This document shows, one piece after another, positions 31,231 through 40,138 of a stretch of 64,000 nt of DNA. The DNA lies in NCBI GenBank assembly GCA_015523125.1, contig WAKX01000053.1:1-64000 (forward strand). Direction: 5' to 3'. Made by a program: the position numbers and the translations under genes. Every line of letters starts with the position of its first letter. The stretch's first letter is position 1. The stretch is from DHVE2 group archaeon (lineage in GTDB: Archaea > Thermoplasmatota > Thermoplasmata > Thermoplasmatales > Aciduliprofundaceae). Below the pieces are notes generated by a model, which saw nothing but the letters and a program-made list of their open reading frames with translations, was not told the origin of the DNA and did no database searches.

Positions 31231-32718
31231 TTACTGGCGAATTCTATCTCTAACCTTAATTGCCTTTCCCTTCTTCTCGTGAATCATATCGTACGAGTTC
31301 ATCCTCGCTATACCCCATGCTCGCAGTTCTCCGTTATGCACGATAACGACTTCATCTCCTTCCCTTATTTCTTCACTTGCATTTATTATTCCCACGGCGA
31401 ACACATCGCCCTCCGGATAGAAATCGTCTATTTCCACCACGTATTTTTTCTCTTTAAGCAATTCTCTGGCGCTGCTTTCCGCTAGGGTCAGCATACCCCT
31501 CTTTATGTCGAATCCGAAATACCGAGATTTTCCCTTTTTGATGTCCACCCTCGGAAACCTTCCATGAATTCTCACGTCCGAGAAATCGTCGCAGCAGGAA
31601 AATTGAAATCTCGCTAGGGATGAGAAATTTTCTTTCATAATCTCATGCCACGGCACATGATAATCAAGTTTTTTTGTCTCTTCCGCCAATTTTTCCAAAT
31701 TCATATTCCAAATCATGGTGGCCCCATGCTCTTTCAATATATCTTCCAAAAATTTCATGCTTTCCGGGAGATACGAGATGACAGCTTCGTAGCTGAATTT
31801 TTCCAAGTACCACGAAAGCATTTCTCGAAGCATTTTTTTCTCCTCTTCGTACCAGTGTCCAATCACAGGGATATCGTAATTTTTTGCAGGATATATCATT
31901 TCCAGTTCTCTTGGAACTATGCCGAGAGGGGAAGTGAGAATAACTTCGTGCATGGTGGATTTTGTGTATCTCTTCATAGTCTTATGGCTCTTCGACTCCG
32001 AATAGGGCTTGCGGGCGGAGCATGGAATAAGCAGAAGGTATTTTCCATACCCGGGTTTTTTATACCTCTCTTTCAATCTCTTCTGCCATCTCACAATATC
32101 TGGGCGGTGCAGTGATAGGAGGCTCACGGCGTTTAGCGATGGAATATATGATGGATAGAACATCTCCTGCTTCTCTTGATATTTCAAATCCAAGTACCTT
32201 AAAATCTCCTGGCTTTTATTGTCCGGAATTCCTTCCACAAGTTCTCTTAGTCTGTTCTCTTTGAACGTGTTCAGGGTCATTTGAAAGATGATATCTGAAG
32301 TTCCCGAAGTGCAATTCTCCGATTCGCCCCATAAATTGTAGCAGCTCAGTTTCTCCATGCAGTCGTCGAACACATCATAACCGAGATAAAAAAGAACGGG
32401 ATAGAGATTCGCAGGAACTCCGGGGGCGTAGAAAATCGCCCCGTATCCGTATTTTTCCCTTATTTTGATTGTGTAATCCACGAATTCTCTTGTATTCCTT
32501 AAAAGATCATTGATGTTGGGAATCAGGTAGAAATTCTCATCTATTTTTATCTCTCTCTGCCCAACGCTCGCTGGATATAGAATTTCGCGCTTCACCTCTC
32601 TCCCCAAAATTATTTCTTTGGAATTCTCAAAGACTATATCTTCTCCGCATTTGAGAAGAAGAGGCGTTTTAAAATCCAGCTCCGTTGATTTTGCAAATGA
32701 AAATCTTTTGCTTAGCAT
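31231..32718 (-). CDS. arcS: Archaeosine synthase ArcS
   Basis: ArcS is the TGT paralogue that converts preQ0 at tRNA position 15 toward archaeosine. The core has the lineage motif PCSARKPYSESKSH, which replaces the zinc and catalytic signature of true TGT, and the C-terminal PUA domain (YFGFDIKRGMLTLAESSARELL to IRVRDR-like end). ATG 32718 lies in TTAATATG directly at the stop of the upstream gene, suggesting translational coupling; a longer frame to 32784 would overlap the neighbour by 65 bases. It is the fourth gene of the ftsZ operon. Confidence 0.85.
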   Translation of the reverse strand: MLSKRFSFAKSTELDFKTPLLLKCGEDIVFENSKEIILGREVKREILYPASVGQREIKIDENFYLIPNINDLLRNTREFVDYTIKIREKYGYGAIFYAPGVPANLYPVLFYLGYDVFDDCMEKLSCYNLWGESENCTSGTSDIIFQMTLNTFKENRLRELVEGIPDNKSQEILRYLDLKYQEKQEMFYPSYIPSLNAVSLLSLHRPDIVRWQKRLKERYKKPGYGKYLLLIPCSARKPYSESKSHKTMKRYTKSTMHEVILTSPLGIVPRELEMIYPAKNYDIPVIGHWYEEEKKMLREMLSWYLEKFSYEAVISYLPESMKFLEDILKEHGATMIWNMNLEKLAEETKKLDYHVPWHEIMKENFSSLARFQFSCCDDFSDVRIHGRFPRVDIKKGKSRYFGFDIKRGMLTLAESSARELLKEKKYVVEIDDFYPEGDVFAVGIINASEEIREGDEVVIVHNGELRAWGIARMNSYDMIHEKKGKAIKVRDRIRQ

Positions 32719-32719
32719 A

Positions 32720-35700
32720 TTAATCAAACTTAAACTCCTGTCCACATACTCTGCATTTTTTAATCCTCTTAGCGCATGGCACATGGTATGTTGCTCCGCA
32801 GTTGTCGCAGATCACCATGTCCATCCCCGGAAGTATCGTGCCGCGGCAGAATGCGCATTTCACCTTCTCTTTGGCCTTTTCTATGTGATATCCTTTGCTC
32901 TCCTCTACTTCTTCTTCCATTTCTATAATTAACTCCTCCAAGATGTTATACTCCTTGCCGTCGAAGCGGTAGTACTCTCCCGAGATGGTTATTTTGTTCC
33001 CTCTTCCTTTTTCCAAGAATACGTCAATTTCCTCCCGGGTGCCTTTCTCTACCTTTAGCAGCTCAACCGGTTCATTGGATTCTAAGGCACCTTTCAATTG
33101 TATTTTAACATTCTGAGCATCAGCATCACCTTTATTTTCCAGTATAAGTTTTGCTGCGTATTTTCCATCACTTTCCTCCCCTATTTCTAAAGAAATGTCC
33201 AGATTTGGTTCTAGGGAATCAATCATCATGTTCAGCTTTGATCTAAGGTCATCGAGCTCAAGTTTTGCCTTTTCCATGTCATTGGGTGCTTTTTCCTCTA
33301 TTTCACGCAGTTTGGTTATTAAATCTCCCACCTTCAATCCGAGAGAGAGCGCGAACCTTAAGCGATCTTTTACCTCTTCCACCCTCTTGCTGAAATCTTC
33401 CATGAACACTTTGTATCTGGCGAGGAAGTCGTTGGTTTCGCGGTAAATTTTGATTGCTTCCGCATAATTGCCAACTTTCCTCATTTTTTCGATTCTCTCC
33501 ACGTACTCTTTGGCCTTTTCTTTGCTGTACTCCCCCACTCTCTTATTTACCCTATCCTCCAAGGATTTTATGTATTCATCTAAATATCTCTTGAAGTTGT
33601 TCTCGATATTTTCAAGCATTCTAAAAATCTCTTGGTAATCTTTTTCCTCCATCATCGAAAGAATCTCGTAGAGCTTTGAGTGGTATTCGTCCATGTTCAC
33701 TCCGTACTTCTCATACTTATCAAATTCTGCTTTGAGTTCCTCTACCTTCTTCTTTATAAGAATGGGCATGAATTTCTCCATCCTCTCATTGAGCATTGAG
33801 GCGTATTCGAAGAATTTGGTGTAATCCTTTGCTCTATACTCCCGGAGCTTCATGTCCGCCTGCTCCAAGTCAATGCCCACATCCACATTGAGCTCTTTGA
33901 ATATCCTTTTCCTTTCTGCAAATTCCTTCATTATGCGATCGCTAACATCAGCAAGCTTCTCGTTGAGCTCTTTCTTCATCTCGCTAAGTTTTACCTTTAT
34001 CTTCTCGTATTCCCCCTCCTCAAATAGCTTGTCCATCTCCCGCATACGCTCTTTGAAATCCTCCTCCAACCCTATTCTCTTAATGAGCGTGCTCATCTTG
34101 CTGTAAGCGCTCTTGTACTTGTTCACAGCGTCGATCATCAGAAGCTTTGCATCGGTGTAGCATTGATCCACTAATTTTAGCGATTCTTGATAGTGCATGT
34201 TCTTGAACTCCTCTTTGGCCTGATTGAAGAGCCTCAGAACATCCTTCACGTCCATGCCGAGGCGGTGGGCCTTCATCACCATGTCCCTGATCTCCTTGTT
34301 CTTCTCCTTTATGTAGTTAATAATCCTCTCAATCTCCGAGACCTTGTCGCTTACCCTCATGGATCTCTCTATGGATTGCTCGTAGAGCCCTTTGAGGAAG
34401 AGCTTTTTGGCGTATTCGTACTCCGTTATTATGTCCTTCGGGAGAATCTTGTTCATTGCTTTGATTTTCACTTCCAATCTTTTCAGAATTCCGTATGCGG
34501 TGTTCTTCTGTATTTCGTATTTTTCTATCTCGCCAACGGCGGTCATCACTTTGTTGAGAGCTTCCACATATTCCTTCTCCTTCAAGTTGGACTTGGCCTT
34601 ATTAAGTATGCTCTCGGGAGCAGTTACATCTTCGCCCCTTCTCCTCCGAGCATCCAATTCTTTTTCAACGTTTAAAATTAAGGAGCGTACCTTCTTGTAA
34701 AGTGCATCTTCTATCTCCTTCGTTATCCTATTCGTTTCTTTCTCGACCTTCTCCATGTCCGAGTACTTGGAAAGTTCTTCCAGCTCCTTGTTGTACTTCG
34801 ACACATCTATGCCAAGGGAAACTGCCATATCCATGTATTTCTTTATCTTGCTCTGCAGCTTTGCCATCTTTTCGTTTCTCTCGTAAACTGCCACGATTTG
34901 AGATTCCAGCTTTTTGAGTATGTATAGTGCGTCTAAATATCTTCTCTTTATGAACAGGTCCTTGGCGTTTTCCAGCTCTTCCATATTTATGTTGAGCTCG
35001 TAACCTTTACCGCGGGCATCGTAAATGTCCGTTTCGATTTTTCCTATGTAATCCGTCAAAATGGTTTCCACATGCTCGCGAAGCTCGGATAATATCTTTT
35101 CCCCATATTCTACAAGATGGTCGTATTTCATGTCCTCGTACCTGTTGTAGAACTCCTTTGTCTTCCTCTTGAACTCGTTCCCTAAACCAAGTTCCCTCAT
35201 TACTTTCCCTATGTTGTCCATTTCTTTGCGGAGCTGCTCCACTCTCGCTCTGTTTTCCATGCTCTCCGCTTTGGTTATACATTCAATTGAGAGCTTTTCC
35301 GCCTCCTCGAACTCATTGTTTTCGAACTTCTTCTTCGCGTCCACCAAGAGCTTTGCAATCTCGCTCACGTTGCCCCCCATGTCCTTGAGCTTTGCCACAA
35401 TTTTTGCTGCATTCACCAGCTGAGAATAAGCTCGCTCCGCCTTATCTCTGAGGTTCTTCGCCCTGTTCTTTGCCTCCATGGAGTACTTTATTGCCCCTTC
35501 GTAATCCTCCTTCTCTATGCTATCTTTCGCTCTCTTTAAGAGATCCATGATTCCCTGTTTCCCTATGTCCACGCCGAGTCTTTTGGCCGCCGCTGCAATT
35601 ATCTTGGCTGAATCAAAGACATCCTTGGCCACGAGGCTTTCAAGATTTTTTAGCGCCTCCTTTCCCCTTGAGATGTAATCTTCTACCTTTACCACGTCTT

Positions 35701-37516
35701 TTTTCTTCAGGGAGATTTCGGCCCTTTCGATGTAGCTTAGAACTTCGGTGGTGTTTCCTCCCGCGGCATGTAGGAATTCCACCTTTTCCCTCATCTCGTT
35801 TATCTTCTTCTGGTACTCCTTCCCCTCCATCTCAAACATAATTTCTTTCATAGTAGCTATCTCTTTGAATACACTCTCCAAATCCCCCACTTCAAAATAC
35901 TCATTTATCTTTTTGAATGCCTCATTTAGCCGCGAATCTTGATACTTTTTCGTCTTCTCCTTCAATTCCTTTATATGATCCTCTATTCTGGTGTACAAAT
36001 CCTCCTCCACCTTTCTGAGCGCTAAAATTGCATCCTTGTAGTTTTCGTCTGTTATCTGAGATTTTGCATCTTCCATGCTCAAATTTAAATCCTCTACCGC
36101 GATTTTCTCCTCCTCCGCTTTCTTTATGATTTCCGAGAGATCGTTGTAGAGAGACTGTGCGATATCTCTGAGACTTATCTTTATACCAGCAATTAACTCG
36201 TTAAGCAATTTCTCCGCTTTTTCCGGGTCCTTCTCGATTGTTTCTTCAATCTCTTTGACGGATTCTTCTACGCCTTCTAAAATTATGTTCTCTTTTTCCA
36301 GGTCTTTGATTTCTGCTTTCAACCTCTTTGTTTCTTCCTTGAGCTGATTGTAGAGGTCCTTCTTCCTCTTTACCATATCGATTGTTTCCAGAACTATATC
36401 GTAGGCCCTTTTGTTTTTTCCTATCTTCAAAAAGTTCCTCGCGTTGTCAATCTTCTTCAAAAATGGATTTATATCAATACCATGCTCCTTCGCGTCCAAA
36501 AACAATTCGCGGGCCTGCTTGATTACCTCCATGACCCGCTGAAACTTCATCTTCTCCGCTTCCTCGGTGGCTTTCTTTATCAATTCAACAGCGCCTTCGA
36601 AGTCATCCTCTTGGTACTTTTTGCTTGCATCTTCTAGGTACTTGGAAGGCCCCGAGATATCCAGCTCCATCCCCTTTCCTTCTTCTACTATTCTCTTGGC
36701 TATGTCGTAGAGCTTCTTGAAGAAGAAATCGAATAATTTTTTAGCGTTTTGCAGGTATTCGTCGGCGGCCCTTATGGCCCCCGAGTAATTTCCGGAATTG
36801 AGCAACTCCTTTATCTTATCCTCAGCGGTTTTATCCACGGGTAGATTGAAATGAGCGGAACTGGCGATTTCTATTATTTTGTGGGTCTTCTCAATTTGCT
36901 CATTGACTCTCTTACCAATTTCCTCCTCAGCCTTCTTCTGTATTTCTTTCAATTTCAAAAGGGTCTCTTCGTCCTTCTTCTCCGTATCTATTTTCCCAAC
37001 TTCATCCTTAACCCATTCCATGCCGGGAATTGTGGATATAACTTCGTCGAGTTCTCTGAGGGTGTGGTTTATGCTCTCCTCCATGACCACGTTCAGCTTC
37101 TCGCGGGTCTCGTTTAAAATTTCAAAACTTCTGTCGGGGTCTTCCCTTATTTTCTCATCGGCCTCGCTCAAATCCGCCTTAATCTTAGCGGCATCTTCTC
37201 CGGAGATGGAATCCAATATTGTCTCAATTTTCTTTTTTTCTTCTTTGTAGAGCTCTTCAACTTTGTTTGTTATTTCTTCGTGGAGCTTCTCGAAAATCTC
37301 TATGGCTCCGTCCATGTCCTTCATGTCGTATAGTTCCTTTCCCTTGTCGTACTCTTTTTTGAACTCATCAACGGGAATTTTTCCTTCTAAAAGGGCGAAT
37401 CTCTTGTCTATACTCTCCATTAATTTATCGCATTTTTCCTTCTTTTCCCTAAGCATTTGGGCTTTTTTCTCGAGTTCTTTTTCCAGTTTCAGTCGGCTCA
37501 GATACGGAGTTGGCAC
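32720..37516 (-). CDS. Giant helical-repeat protein with beta-sandwich and RING/PHD-like zinc finger
   Basis: About 1598 residues, no signal peptide or membrane helix. An N-terminal coiled coil is followed by about 13 loosely similar helical modules. Many begin G-(hydrophobic)-(D/N)-(V/I) and contain A-(K/E)-x-x-(L/F)-x-(K/E)-x-x-(Y/F)-x-x-A, for example GVDIGKQGIMDLLKRAKDS, GGNVSEIAKLLVDAKKKF and GMDVKDVLRLFNQAKEEF. Near the C-terminus is a beta-sandwich segment (LILENKGDADAQNVKIQLKG), then a zinc finger C-x2-C-x12-C-x2-C-x4-H-x2-C-x6-C-x2-C, a C4HC3 pattern close to the prokaryotic RING family. GTG 37516 has GGAGG at 7 bases; TTG 37522 is too close to that site. It lies 44 bases behind ftsZ and abuts arcS. 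Function unknown; a scaffold linked to division is inferred from position. Confidence 0.85.
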   Translation of the reverse strand: MPTPYLSRLKLEKELEKKAQMLREKKEKCDKLMESIDKRFALLEGKIPVDEFKKEYDKGKELYDMKDMDGAIEIFEKLHEEITNKVEELYKEEKKKIETILDSISGEDAAKIKADLSEADEKIREDPDRSFEILNETREKLNVVMEESINHTLRELDEVISTIPGMEWVKDEVGKIDTEKKDEETLLKLKEIQKKAEEEIGKRVNEQIEKTHKIIEIASSAHFNLPVDKTAEDKIKELLNSGNYSGAIRAADEYLQNAKKLFDFFFKKLYDIAKRIVEEGKGMELDISGPSKYLEDASKKYQEDDFEGAVELIKKATEEAEKMKFQRVMEVIKQARELFLDAKEHGIDINPFLKKIDNARNFLKIGKNKRAYDIVLETIDMVKRKKDLYNQLKEETKRLKAEIKDLEKENIILEGVEESVKEIEETIEKDPEKAEKLLNELIAGIKISLRDIAQSLYNDLSEIIKKAEEEKIAVEDLNLSMEDAKSQITDENYKDAILALRKVEEDLYTRIEDHIKELKEKTKKYQDSRLNEAFKKINEYFEVGDLESVFKEIATMKEIMFEMEGKEYQKKINEMREKVEFLHAAGGNTTEVLSYIERAEISLKKKDVVKVEDYISRGKEALKNLESLVAKDVFDSAKIIAAAAKRLGVDIGKQGIMDLLKRAKDSIEKEDYEGAIKYSMEAKNRAKNLRDKAERAYSQLVNAAKIVAKLKDMGGNVSEIAKLLVDAKKKFENNEFEEAEKLSIECITKAESMENRARVEQLRKEMDNIGKVMRELGLGNEFKRKTKEFYNRYEDMKYDHLVEYGEKILSELREHVETILTDYIGKIETDIYDARGKGYELNINMEELENAKDLFIKRRYLDALYILKKLESQIVAVYERNEKMAKLQSKIKKYMDMAVSLGIDVSKYNKELEELSKYSDMEKVEKETNRITKEIEDALYKKVRSLILNVEKELDARRRRGEDVTAPESILNKAKSNLKEKEYVEALNKVMTAVGEIEKYEIQKNTAYGILKRLEVKIKAMNKILPKDIITEYEYAKKLFLKGLYEQSIERSMRVSDKVSEIERIINYIKEKNKEIRDMVMKAHRLGMDVKDVLRLFNQAKEEFKNMHYQESLKLVDQCYTDAKLLMIDAVNKYKSAYSKMSTLIKRIGLEEDFKERMREMDKLFEEGEYEKIKVKLSEMKKELNEKLADVSDRIMKEFAERKRIFKELNVDVGIDLEQADMKLREYRAKDYTKFFEYASMLNERMEKFMPILIKKKVEELKAEFDKYEKYGVNMDEYHSKLYEILSMMEEKDYQEIFRMLENIENNFKRYLDEYIKSLEDRVNKRVGEYSKEKAKEYVERIEKMRKVGNYAEAIKIYRETNDFLARYKVFMEDFSKRVEEVKDRLRFALSLGLKVGDLITKLREIEEKAPNDMEKAKLELDDLRSKLNMMIDSLEPNLDISLEIGEESDGKYAAKLILENKGDADAQNVKIQLKGALESNEPVELLKVEKGTREEIDVFLEKGRGNKITISGEYYRFDGKEYNILEELIIEMEEEVEESKGYHIEKAKEKVKCAFCRGTILPGMDMVICDNCGATYHVPCAKRIKKCRVCGQEFKFD

Positions 37517-37560
37517 TTTCAAACCTCCATTATAGTAATGGGAATTTCCGATTTAATATT

Positions 37561-38592
37561 TTACCTCACCTCGAACACTTCTTTGCTCTCTTTTATTACC
37601 TTCTTTTCCTCTAAGAAAGGAAGCTTAATTCCTGTGAGAACTACTAAGATTCTCATCCTGCCGAAGTACTCGGGGTCCACGCGCGCGCCCATGGAAATCT
37701 TTGAGTTCTCCTTGAGGAAGGAGGAAATGGTGTCTACGGTTGAGTATATCATGTTGAGCGTCGCATCCTCTCCCACTGTCATGTGAATGAGCGCCCCGTC
37801 GGCGGTGCTGTAATCCACATTGATGAACGGATTGTTTAAAGCGTCCGTTACGATTTTCCTTATGTTATCGATTCCTCCTTCACTTATGAGAAGCGTGGAC
37901 ATGTTTCCGCTCTCCATGATATACCTCAAATCTGAGATGTCGATGTTGATTAGTGAGGGCTTGGTTATTATGTCAACGAAGGACATTATCGCGTAGCTAA
38001 TGAGTTGATCCATCACCATGAACGCCTCGTTGAGAGGACGATTTGGCACGATGTCGATGAGTTTTTCATTCTCCAACACAATAACAGTGTTTGATTTCTC
38101 CGCTATTTTTTTCAAACCTTCTCGAGCGTACTTCACCCTTATCTTTTCGATTTTGAATGGCAATGTGACAATTGAAAGAACCATGGCCCCCTGCTTTCTT
38201 GCGATGTCCGCTATCACAGGGGCTGCGCCGGTGCCCGTCCCTCCACCCAATCCGGCGGTTAGGAACACTATGTCCGCACCTTTGAAAAGCTCTGCAATCT
38301 TCTCCCTCGCCAGTATGGCGCTTCTCTCCCCCTCCCCCACGCTTCCTCCCGTGCCGCTACCTCTCCTCGATTTCAGGAGAACTTTGGTGTCGGCATCAAT
38401 CATTCTTAAATGGGGGGCATCGGTATTGATTGCGATTGTGTGCACATCTAACCCCAATGTTTTCATCCTCCATATTGCGTTGCAGCCCGCGCCCCCGACT
38501 CCCACAACTAAAATGTTTGGTTTATTCACATGTCCGTGGATATCGTATTCGCTATAGTCGGTAACTCTCCTCAACAAAGAGGTGAAGCTCAT
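37561..38592 (-). CDS. ftsZ: Cell division protein FtsZ
   Basis: Tubulin-like GTPase of 343 residues. It has the nucleotide-binding strand ILVVGVGGAGCNAIWRM, the GTP signature GLGGGTGTGAAPV, and the NEAFMVMDQLI-type T7 region with catalytic acid context. It forms the division ring. The C-terminal tail after the core is short (about 20 residues ending KVIKESKEVFEVR), so contact with membrane or partners may need an adaptor. The ATG overlaps the upstream ribbon-helix-helix gene in an ATGA junction. Confidence 0.95.
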   Translation of the reverse strand: MSFTSLLRRVTDYSEYDIHGHVNKPNILVVGVGGAGCNAIWRMKTLGLDVHTIAINTDAPHLRMIDADTKVLLKSRRGSGTGGSVGEGERSAILAREKIAELFKGADIVFLTAGLGGGTGTGAAPVIADIARKQGAMVLSIVTLPFKIEKIRVKYAREGLKKIAEKSNTVIVLENEKLIDIVPNRPLNEAFMVMDQLISYAIMSFVDIITKPSLINIDISDLRYIMESGNMSTLLISEGGIDNIRKIVTDALNNPFINVDYSTADGALIHMTVGEDATLNMIYSTVDTISSFLKENSKISMGARVDPEYFGRMRILVVLTGIKLPFLEEKKVIKESKEVFEVR

Positions 38593-38945
38593 TTTTCGGC
38601 CTCCTGCTTTATCTTCTCCATCTCTCCCCTAATTTCCTTCGCAGCCGCTTTGGATATGACGTTGCGCACATATTCCTTAACTGCAAGGCGAATTGCATCG
38701 TCCAAGTCCACCGCCTCCACGTCCCCTGATTCAACAAGCTCCAGAAGCAATGCGACGGTTTTTTTGGGTAAATCCACGTTCACCCTCTCTATGTTCTGGG
38801 GCGCGAATTTTGTCGCCAGAAATTCCTCAATTGCGGCTCTAACCACATCGGATATATTTTTATACTCCCCGCTATCAACCAATTTCTGAAGCTTATCAGT
38901 TGCGGCTTTGGAGAGGCGTATAGTAATCCTCGCCGAATCAGACAT
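38589..38945 (-). CDS. CdrS-like double ribbon-helix-helix protein
   Basis: Two ribbon-helix-helix units lie in tandem in 118 residues: ARITIRLSKAATDKLQKLV (about 5-44) and ERVNVDLPKKTVALLLELV (about 53-94), followed by a charged helix. A gene of this type next to ftsZ is a known euryarchaeal arrangement: in haloarchaea the ribbon-helix-helix protein CdrS regulates ftsZ2 and cell division. The 4-base overlap with ftsZ supports the same link here. It is the first gene of the operon; binding sites are not yet identified. Confidence 0.82.
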   Translation of the reverse strand: MSDSARITIRLSKAATDKLQKLVDSGEYKNISDVVRAAIEEFLATKFAPQNIERVNVDLPKKTVALLLELVESGDVEAVDLDDAIRLAVKEYVRNVISKAAAKEIRGEMEKIKQEAEK

Positions 38946-39027
38946 TTTTTCTCACTTCCAAATGTTTTGTCTGACATAAAGTATGTTGTAGGTCGTATAA
39001 ATACTTTTTCCCCGCTGAAATAAAAAA

Positions 39028-39303
39028 TTATGGTGCGGCCAGAAGTTCTTGGCCCTCTGGCATGAGAACGCCGTAATGCCTGAATGGAAGCACATCCACC
39101 TCTAATTCCACTATTTTCGCGTTCTTAGCACCAATTTCCCTTACCTCGTTTTCGATTATTTCTCTGCTAACATTTCCCTCCAGCCATGCCAGCCTGTACC
39201 CCGGATACTTTTTCTTCACGTTCTCATTCACCAATTCCACGAAGTTGTTTATCGGTTTTTCTAAGAATTCTTTACCCGCCCTAATTTCTATTTTGTCAGA
39301 CAT
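39028..39303 (-). CDS. Conserved-looking small hypothetical protein
   Basis: A 91-residue soluble acidic/basic mixed protein, starting MSDKIEIRAGKEF at ATG 39303 with a GGGTGAT site. No family is recognised. It contains no Cys cluster, membrane helix or P-loop. It lies upstream of the cdrS-ftsZ operon on the same strand, 83 bases away, and may be a separate transcription unit. Confidence 0.6.
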   Translation of the reverse strand: MSDKIEIRAGKEFLEKPINNFVELVNENVKKKYPGYRLAWLEGNVSREIIENEVREIGAKNAKIVELEVDVLPFRHYGVLMPEGQELLAAP

Positions 39304-39398
39304 TTGTATCACCCATGTGTGACATAGTAAAAGAAGTATATAAAAATTTTCATCGGGGGAAGCGAAAAGATGATTAACCCCTTTTCATTTTACCGATT

Positions 39399-39693: not shown

Positions 39694-40138
39694 TCATCGT
39701 AAAAAGCAGTAGAGTTTGTAAAGGAATCTCAATACGATTCTCTTTTTTCCCCTGAGAAGTTTTTCCACTGTATTTTTAGCCACTTTTTCCGGGTAGAGCA
39801 TTATTTTCTCTATGTTTTTGGTTGGCATGTTTGCCTTTTTGAAGAATGCGGTTCTTGTGGGTCCTAAGAGAAGATAGGAGATTTTTATGTTTTTCGTATT
39901 CTCCCTTTGCAGCGGGCGGGTGAAGTGCTCCACTATTTTCCTTACCTTTAGGTAATCATTAGCAAAATCAATAGAGAAATTAACCGCCCCGAGAGCTCGT
40001 TGGCTGTTTTTTCAATATCTCTTCATTCTTCGCGACTATTATCACATTATATCCTCTCTTTTGCAATTCTTTCGCCATGTGGTATCCGATTCCGCTGCTT
40101 CCTCCTGTGACGAGGCGTACATGCCGCGGGTTTAATTC
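39694..40138 (-). pseudogene. Degraded short-chain dehydrogenase/reductase gene
   Basis: Remnants of an SDR gene can be read in three frames. The Rossmann motif TGGSSGIGYHMAKELQKRGY (about 40110 down to 40050) has no start codon upstream: its frame meets a TAG at about 40139-40141. A frameshift near 40010 moves into KTANELSG, and another near 39988 into AVNFSIDFANDYLK. The frame then continues to LLLGPTRTAFFKKANM, the typical SDR C-terminal PG-x-x-x-T-x-F region, and ends at 39694. The middle of the enzyme (the NNAG and YxxxK active-site regions) is missing. This is a decaying gene, not an active enzyme. Confidence 0.8.

Follow-up and report, generated by a model that had tools for sequence, protein, structure and literature searches.

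An ftsZ operon and a condensin gene cluster behind the same predicted switch suggest an undescribed division/segregation scaffold in Thermoplasmata

In haloarchaea, the small ribbon-helix-helix (RHH) gene cdrS lies directly 5' of a co-directional ftsZ2 (PMC7439475, PMC8406309), and cdrS-ftsZ2 synteny across much of Archaea has been published (PMC7439475). Repression of cdrS-ftsZ2 in Haloferax lowers ftsZ1, ftsZ2, sepF and a homologue of smc, and CdrS was found bound upstream of ftsZ1 (PMC8406309). The locus described here has the same arrangement of a small RHH gene and ftsZ, and the response of ftsZ1 and smc to cdrS-ftsZ2 repression (PMC8406309) is a second point of likeness. Unlike the haloarchaeal locus, it continues with the gene of a giant protein and with arcS, encodes an RHH protein with two RHH units that falls short of the equivalog cut-off for CdrS, and has its predicted operator between the TATA box and the start codon, a position from which a bound protein would be expected to repress. 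The Haloferax results provide an independent precedent for the regulon proposed below, not for the giant.

The window, which is the whole stretch of DNA that was analysed, comprises 64,000 nucleotides from a deep-sea DHVE2 group archaeon. The window's family (Aciduliprofundaceae-type) is designated f1 and its sister family f3; other f, g and G codes designate the families, genera and genomes compared, with G000 as the window's genome. The features of the locus are the following.

39291..39301, minus strand: second operator-like site GTCTGACAAAA, over the start codon of a 94-aa gene (39028-39312)
38996..39003, minus strand: TATA box TATTTATA, with a BRE-like GAAAAAG just before it (39004-39010)
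38965..38976, minus strand: predicted RHH operator TGTCAGACAAAA, palindromic core TGTCNGACA
38589..38945, minus strand: CdrS-like double RHH regulator, 118 aa (PF01402 1e-07; NF058555 1.3e-11)
37561..38592, minus strand: ftsZ, 343 aa (TIGR00065 296.2 bits, PF00091 1.4e-36, PF12327 3.9e-16, alignment)
37524..37528, minus strand: Shine-Dalgarno sequence GGAGG, 7 bases 5' of the giant's GTG start
32720..37516, minus strand: giant helical-repeat / Ig-like / RING protein, 1,598 aa
33218..37495, minus strand: 23 tandem repeats of ~61 residues in the giant, residues 8-1433 (AlphaFold2, autocorrelation)
32930..33202, minus strand: Ig-like / adaptin-appendage-like beta-sandwich of the giant, residues ~1439-1529 (model, Foldseek)
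32726..32872, minus strand: C4HC3 zinc finger of the giant, Prok-RING_1, residues 1549-1597 (PF14446 3.4e-10)
31231..32718, minus strand: arcS, archaeosine synthase alpha (NF053620 3.9e-120, PF17884 9.6e-46)

A check of the open reading frames places all four genes on the minus strand and bears out the layout described in an earlier sequence-only reading. The RHH stop and the ftsZ start share 4 bases (ATGA), the giant begins with GTG at 37516, 44 bases past the ftsZ stop, with the ~1598 residues claimed for it, and the arcS ATG at 32718 stands directly 3' of the giant's TAA, with a longer arcS frame possible from 32784. The longest frame of the giant would start with TTG at 37522 and encode 1,600 aa; the GTG start is supported because the N-terminus is conserved among the giants of relatives, where the start motif, VPTPYLSRLKLEKELEKKA in the window, takes the form xGxYLKxxQLxKQLEEKAKEA. 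The suggestion that RHH, ftsZ, giant and arcS form one operon gains support from their conserved gene order. The 94-aa gene upstream, to which no function is assigned, has its own TATA box and is kept in relatives G002 and G007, where an operator-like site again covers its start. Near positions 39700-40130 of the window, a broken short-chain-dehydrogenase-like gene with an interrupted frame was recognised by eye, and a similar gene appears intact in G011, beside the same DUF5611 neighbour (L214).

The RHH protein matches the CdrS model NF058555 in two stretches, with 44.3 bits against an equivalog cut-off of 100 bits. It has the RHH fold (PF01402), and its gene stands directly 5' of a co-directional ftsZ in the window and likewise in f1, f3 (with a dead FtsZ), f4, f5 and other families of the class. 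The description of the protein as a CdrS-like regulator is supported by a model match at E 1.3e-11, below the cut-off, and by the conserved RHH-ftsZ order. The FtsZ of the window passes TIGR00065 (cut-off 295.2 bits) and retains an intact GTPase signature, GGGTGTG, and T7-loop, NxDxxD. A tree of FtsZ paralogues built without a haloarchaeal reference is partly resolved. Seven FtsZ matches are present in G000 (e.g. C14:92111, C14:23738, C2:36127, C17:3315), and most Aciduliprofundaceae-type relatives have about seven, compared with 0-3 in f6.

The ftsZ slot of f3 is occupied by a degenerate FtsZ of ~290 aa (L088:11801-12667, L089:8340-9218, L115:4152-5021) that lacks the GTPase signature, with GQTEGKFQET, for example, in place of GGGTGTG. 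This remnant has no Pfam match. Its probable kinship with FtsZ rests on the gene slot, on an hhalign match to the window's FtsZ (87%, E 4e-6) and on FtsZ ranking first among solved structures (PDB FtsZ, E 4e-4). As a query in f1 genomes, the remnant retrieves the giant-linked FtsZ among about seven paralogues. Its placement on a tree was tried and rejected, its branch being too long. Where the giant has been lost, the remnant is still paired with the RHH gene.

The giant has a mass of 187 kDa, a pI of 5.5 and no membrane helix. AlphaFold2 models generated from family alignments cover residues 860-1598 (pLDDT 84.5) and 1-870 (pLDDT 85.1), with overall placement uncertain in both (pTM 0.35-0.44). 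In these models, residues 8 to ~1433 form an unbroken alternation of ~40- and ~15-residue helices in which the 23 short helices have a mean spacing of 61.2 +/- 3.1 residues, and, independently of the models, the strongest autocorrelation lag of the giant's profile among lags 30-259 is 62. The rod is therefore assigned 23 hairpin repeats with a mean period of 61 aa, replacing the ~13 helical modules originally counted. The beta-sandwich and the C4HC3 finger noticed at the same time are both recovered, the former with seven strands in the model and the latter with 40.1 bits against the Prok-RING_1 gathering cut-off of 29.1 and all eight zinc ligands (C1554, C1557, C1570, C1573, H1578, C1581, C1588, C1591). 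These ligands align through the giants of f1, f3 and f4, with one cysteine missing in the f4 G020 protein. The opposite end of the protein carries a conserved N-terminal motif, PxPY[LI]SxxK.

Pfam, NCBIfam and sequence analysis identify no enzyme domain or membrane helix in the giant, and its lack of Pfam or NCBIfam matches to ABC heads, a hinge or a kleisin/KITE domain sets it apart from SMC and condensin subunits. A sequence search against solved structures returns no homologue, the profile of the C-terminal half gives weak coiled-coil matches only, and the N-terminal half matches no solved structure at E <= 0.001 with Foldseek. Spectrin, TPR proteins and designed helical-repeat rods, in which tandem helical hairpins likewise form a long rod, offer a working analogy only, and the giant differs from them in its unit, a 61-residue long/short hairpin. 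The finger resembles Prok-RING_1 in score and ligands; unlike Prok-RING_1, it is fused to the 23-repeat rod and an Ig-like domain, and several giants do without it. The succession of helical solenoid, beta-sandwich and RING also recalls Vps proteins, alpha-COP and the adaptins with their appendages, to which no sequence relationship was found, so that the resemblance is one of layout. A giant of this build might be an E3-like or trafficking scaffold acting on ubiquitin-like modifiers or vesicles, as the C4HC3 finger and the Foldseek matches of the sandwich to alpha- and gamma-adaptin appendage domains (probability 1.0) would allow. The sandwich likewise matches other Ig-like folds, however, which makes this similarity generic; giants of Methanomassiliicoccales type retain the sandwich and lack any CxxC close to the C-terminus, and the finger can therefore be dispensed with; and no E1, E2 or Ub genes lie beside the giant in the window's neighbourhood. 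This role is accordingly considered very improbable.

The nearest record is a DHVE2 archaeon MAG with a 96% identical giant, which is the sole near-identical relative in a contig scan of the genome collection. All f1 genomes examined encode the giant, and Aciduliprofundaceae-type giants are 35-73% identical to that of the window (35-38% in other genera). In f3 and f4 both of its ends can still be recognised; in f5, where the contig stops before the C-terminus, the N-terminus can. Class-wide searches used profiles of the C-terminal 199 residues and the N-terminal 90 residues, and both detect the giant in many other families of class Thermoplasmata, mostly as frames of ~1,400-1,650 residues. The N-terminal profile has a match at E <= 0.001 in 160 of 283 class genomes, the weak matches including internal repeats. 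The giants of f9, f11 and f19 keep the sandwich and have no CxxC finger. No giant is present in f6 or in f3 genus g7, both of which have SMC, ScpB and partly FtsZ; it is therefore not essential for division in the order. Outside this set, proteins of ~3,150-3,200 aa with the giant's ends and about double its length were seen in another class of the phylum (L178:1618-11169 in G133; G121:C3). The window's genome also encodes two adjoining paralogues of ~1,030-1,110 aa (L072:7225-13647, G000 C32), each with two DUF835 stretches and helical regions, that end in the same Ig-like and RING domains as the giant and adjoin a multi-pass DUF835 protein.

Every resolvable Aciduliprofundaceae-type genome has the order RHH-ftsZ-giant-arcS. 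Within f3, the order is RHH-FtsZ remnant-giant-arcS in g14, remnant-giant-arcS in g17 (contig stops before RHH), RHH-remnant-giant in g21 (contig stops inside the giant) and RHH-remnant-arcS in g7, from which the giant is gone. The giant and arcS remain paired in f4, with RHH-ftsZ located elsewhere in G020, and RHH-ftsZ is likewise apart from the giant in f5. Most giants of the class stand alone, with no ftsZ, condensin genes or operator nearby. The ftsZ linkage central to the sequence-only reading is thus kept in the window's family and, with the remnant in the ftsZ slot, in its sister family, and is absent from most homologues in the class. A role as obligate FtsZ partner was therefore rejected.

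The tRNA-modification genes next to the giant vary from family to family (L166; QueH, L170; CGI-121, L173; arcS in the window). The steadiest neighbour within the order is arcS, found next to the giant in f1, f3 and f4, while queH lies 3' of it in f22, CGI-121 (KEOPS) lies 5' of it in f11, and KaiC, FTCD and others occur elsewhere in the class. Such neighbours, together with the lack of ftsZ linkage for most homologues, could indicate a housekeeping protein unrelated to division, perhaps linked to tRNA modification, that adjoins division genes by chance. This explanation is judged unlikely given that ArcS, QueH and Cgi121 represent different pathways, that no RNA-binding domain was found in the giant, that the giant lies directly behind ftsZ, scpA or scpB in three separate contexts, and that most of these ftsZ/scpA/scpB-giant operons have one operator in common.

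The condensin contexts fall in two places in the tree. The order in f4 G020 is smc-scpA-giant-arcS, and in f14, f21, f60, f61 and f62 the giant is downstream of smc with scpA and/or scpB; the giants of the latter five families form one clade (SH-aLRT 99) separate from the f4 G020 giant. On a short contig of f59 the giant is downstream of scpB, and f59 is probably a sixth family of this clade. The giant thereby resembles a member of the SMC-ScpA-ScpB operon, standing directly downstream in five class families, mostly behind the same operator type; it lacks the ABC ATPase head, the hinge and the kleisin domain, however, and shares no homology with SMC, ScpA or ScpB. Its main role might be that of a condensin accessory or chromosome-organising rod working with SMC-ScpAB, the ftsZ linkage giving only the same cell-cycle expression. 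That would suit the smc-scpA(-scpB)-giant operons of one clade and, separately, of f4 G020, the paired operator before such operons and the detection of condensin genes in every one of the 16 genomes searched with the SMC hinge model. It fits poorly with the window's family, in which the giant is beside ftsZ and not smc, with the acidity of the protein and its lack of ATPase, kleisin and DNA-binding domains, and with families such as f6 that have SMC without the giant; the proposal is regarded as unlikely.

The predicted operator was compared across the same loci. In f1, f3, f4 and f5, all 18 RHH loci compared have GTCNGAC 24-34 bases 5' of the start of the RHH gene; every locus examined from f1, f4 and f5 also has a TATWTATA-type box, 56-62 bases 5' of that start. 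Wherever a TATA box is recognised in the RHH operons of f1, f3, f4 and f5, the sites are downstream of it. Among fetched loci, GTCNGAC is present upstream of RHH (16/16), smc (8/16), ftsZ (5/19) and the giant (1/41), with a background of 34/665, many of these 34 being divergent neighbours of targets. GTC performs best of all 64 palindromic triplets of this form. Fisher values for these comparisons overstate significance because the loci are related and not independent, so the statistics are indicative only, and the smc value predates the start correction. With corrected smc starts, paired copies 11-12 bp apart precede smc in f14, f21 (two), f60 and f62 (two), a single copy precedes it in f4 G020, and none is found in f61, f3 or f4 G024. 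Among six f1 genomes, four have one copy 20-32 bases before the smc start and two (G000, G004) each have only a distal copy; a seventh, G007, has one copy just before smc. The RHH-ftsZ operons of other class families carry two copies, mostly 21-22 bp apart.

The core TGTCNGACA is rarer than GTCNGAC. Its five occurrences in closed genome G013 lie before or over the starts of the genes for SMC, a second FtsZ, a Phage_integrase/Xer-type protein and two small proteins. Closed genome G011 has 11 sites, of which eight are promoter-proximal to the same kinds of gene and the RHH operon and three are intragenic. The seven sites of the window's genome are at the RHH operon, the start of the 94-aa gene, a second ftsZ, two small-protein genes and two intragenic positions. 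Counted over whole genomes, the 11-base operator is no more frequent than its reversed control; promoter-proximal tests were used because the signal lies in position rather than in bare genome count. A sigma-70 promoter scan gives no excess, the model being uninformative for an archaeon. Two small uncharacterised proteins (~55-75 aa) have the operator in their promoter in several genomes (L254:739-969, L252:~625-858, L260, L263 and relatives) and are candidates for new members of the division regulon.

The preferred reading, with a probability of roughly 0.6, is a CdrS-type division/segregation regulon in which the giant serves as a non-enzymatic scaffold or tether. A CdrS-type division operon would have gained the giant as an extra gene. 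The double-RHH protein would bind the predicted palindromic GTCNGAC sites immediately downstream of the TATA box and control its own operon (RHH, ftsZ, giant, arcS), the second ftsZ and smc, and probably the Xer-type recombinase, with the giant co-transcribed and expressed with division genes. The giant would be an elongated tether, with PxPY[LI]SxxK at its N-terminus, the rod of 23 helical hairpins in between and the Ig-like and RING domains as a docking end. Its task would lie in division and the segregation of chromosomes; in the simplest case it would form a physical bridge from SMC to Z-ring or membrane partners. The sequences themselves give the giant's anatomy, its gene order, its distribution and the shared promoter motif; the binding, the co-transcription and the tether role with its partners are inferences from them. 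The original idea of a division or cytoskeletal scaffold is favoured by gene order, the shared predicted operator and the smc-scpA-scpB linkage and is weakened by the rarity of the FtsZ link in the class; since ftsZ linkage is absent in most of the class, 'FtsZ scaffold' is too narrow and 'division/segregation scaffold' fits better. Condensin may be as important a partner of the giant as the Z-ring, or a more important one. A bolder and tentative extension is that the rods of ~1,500 residues in this class-wide family could exist specifically to couple SMC condensin mechanically to the FtsZ division machinery. Their genes, in ftsZ or smc-scpAB operons, would then answer to a single CdrS-type operator, which would control smc, a second ftsZ and the Xer-type recombinase as well.

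The giants as a family, their link to condensin, the operator and regulon in Thermoplasmata and the f3 FtsZ remnant appear to be undescribed in the openly accessible literature searched, and searches on archaeal Prok-RING proteins, Aciduliprofundum FtsZ and archaeal pseudo-FtsZ returned nothing relevant. The CdrS-FtsZ2 locus and Prok-RING_1 are already known. The series from intact FtsZ through dead FtsZ to a lost giant provides natural material on the purpose of a second FtsZ. The predicted operator and regulon are concrete and open to checking in Aciduliprofundum or Methanomassiliicoccales, which can be cultured; the giant, with its clear domain ends, is a testable candidate for coupling archaeal chromosome segregation to FtsZ division.
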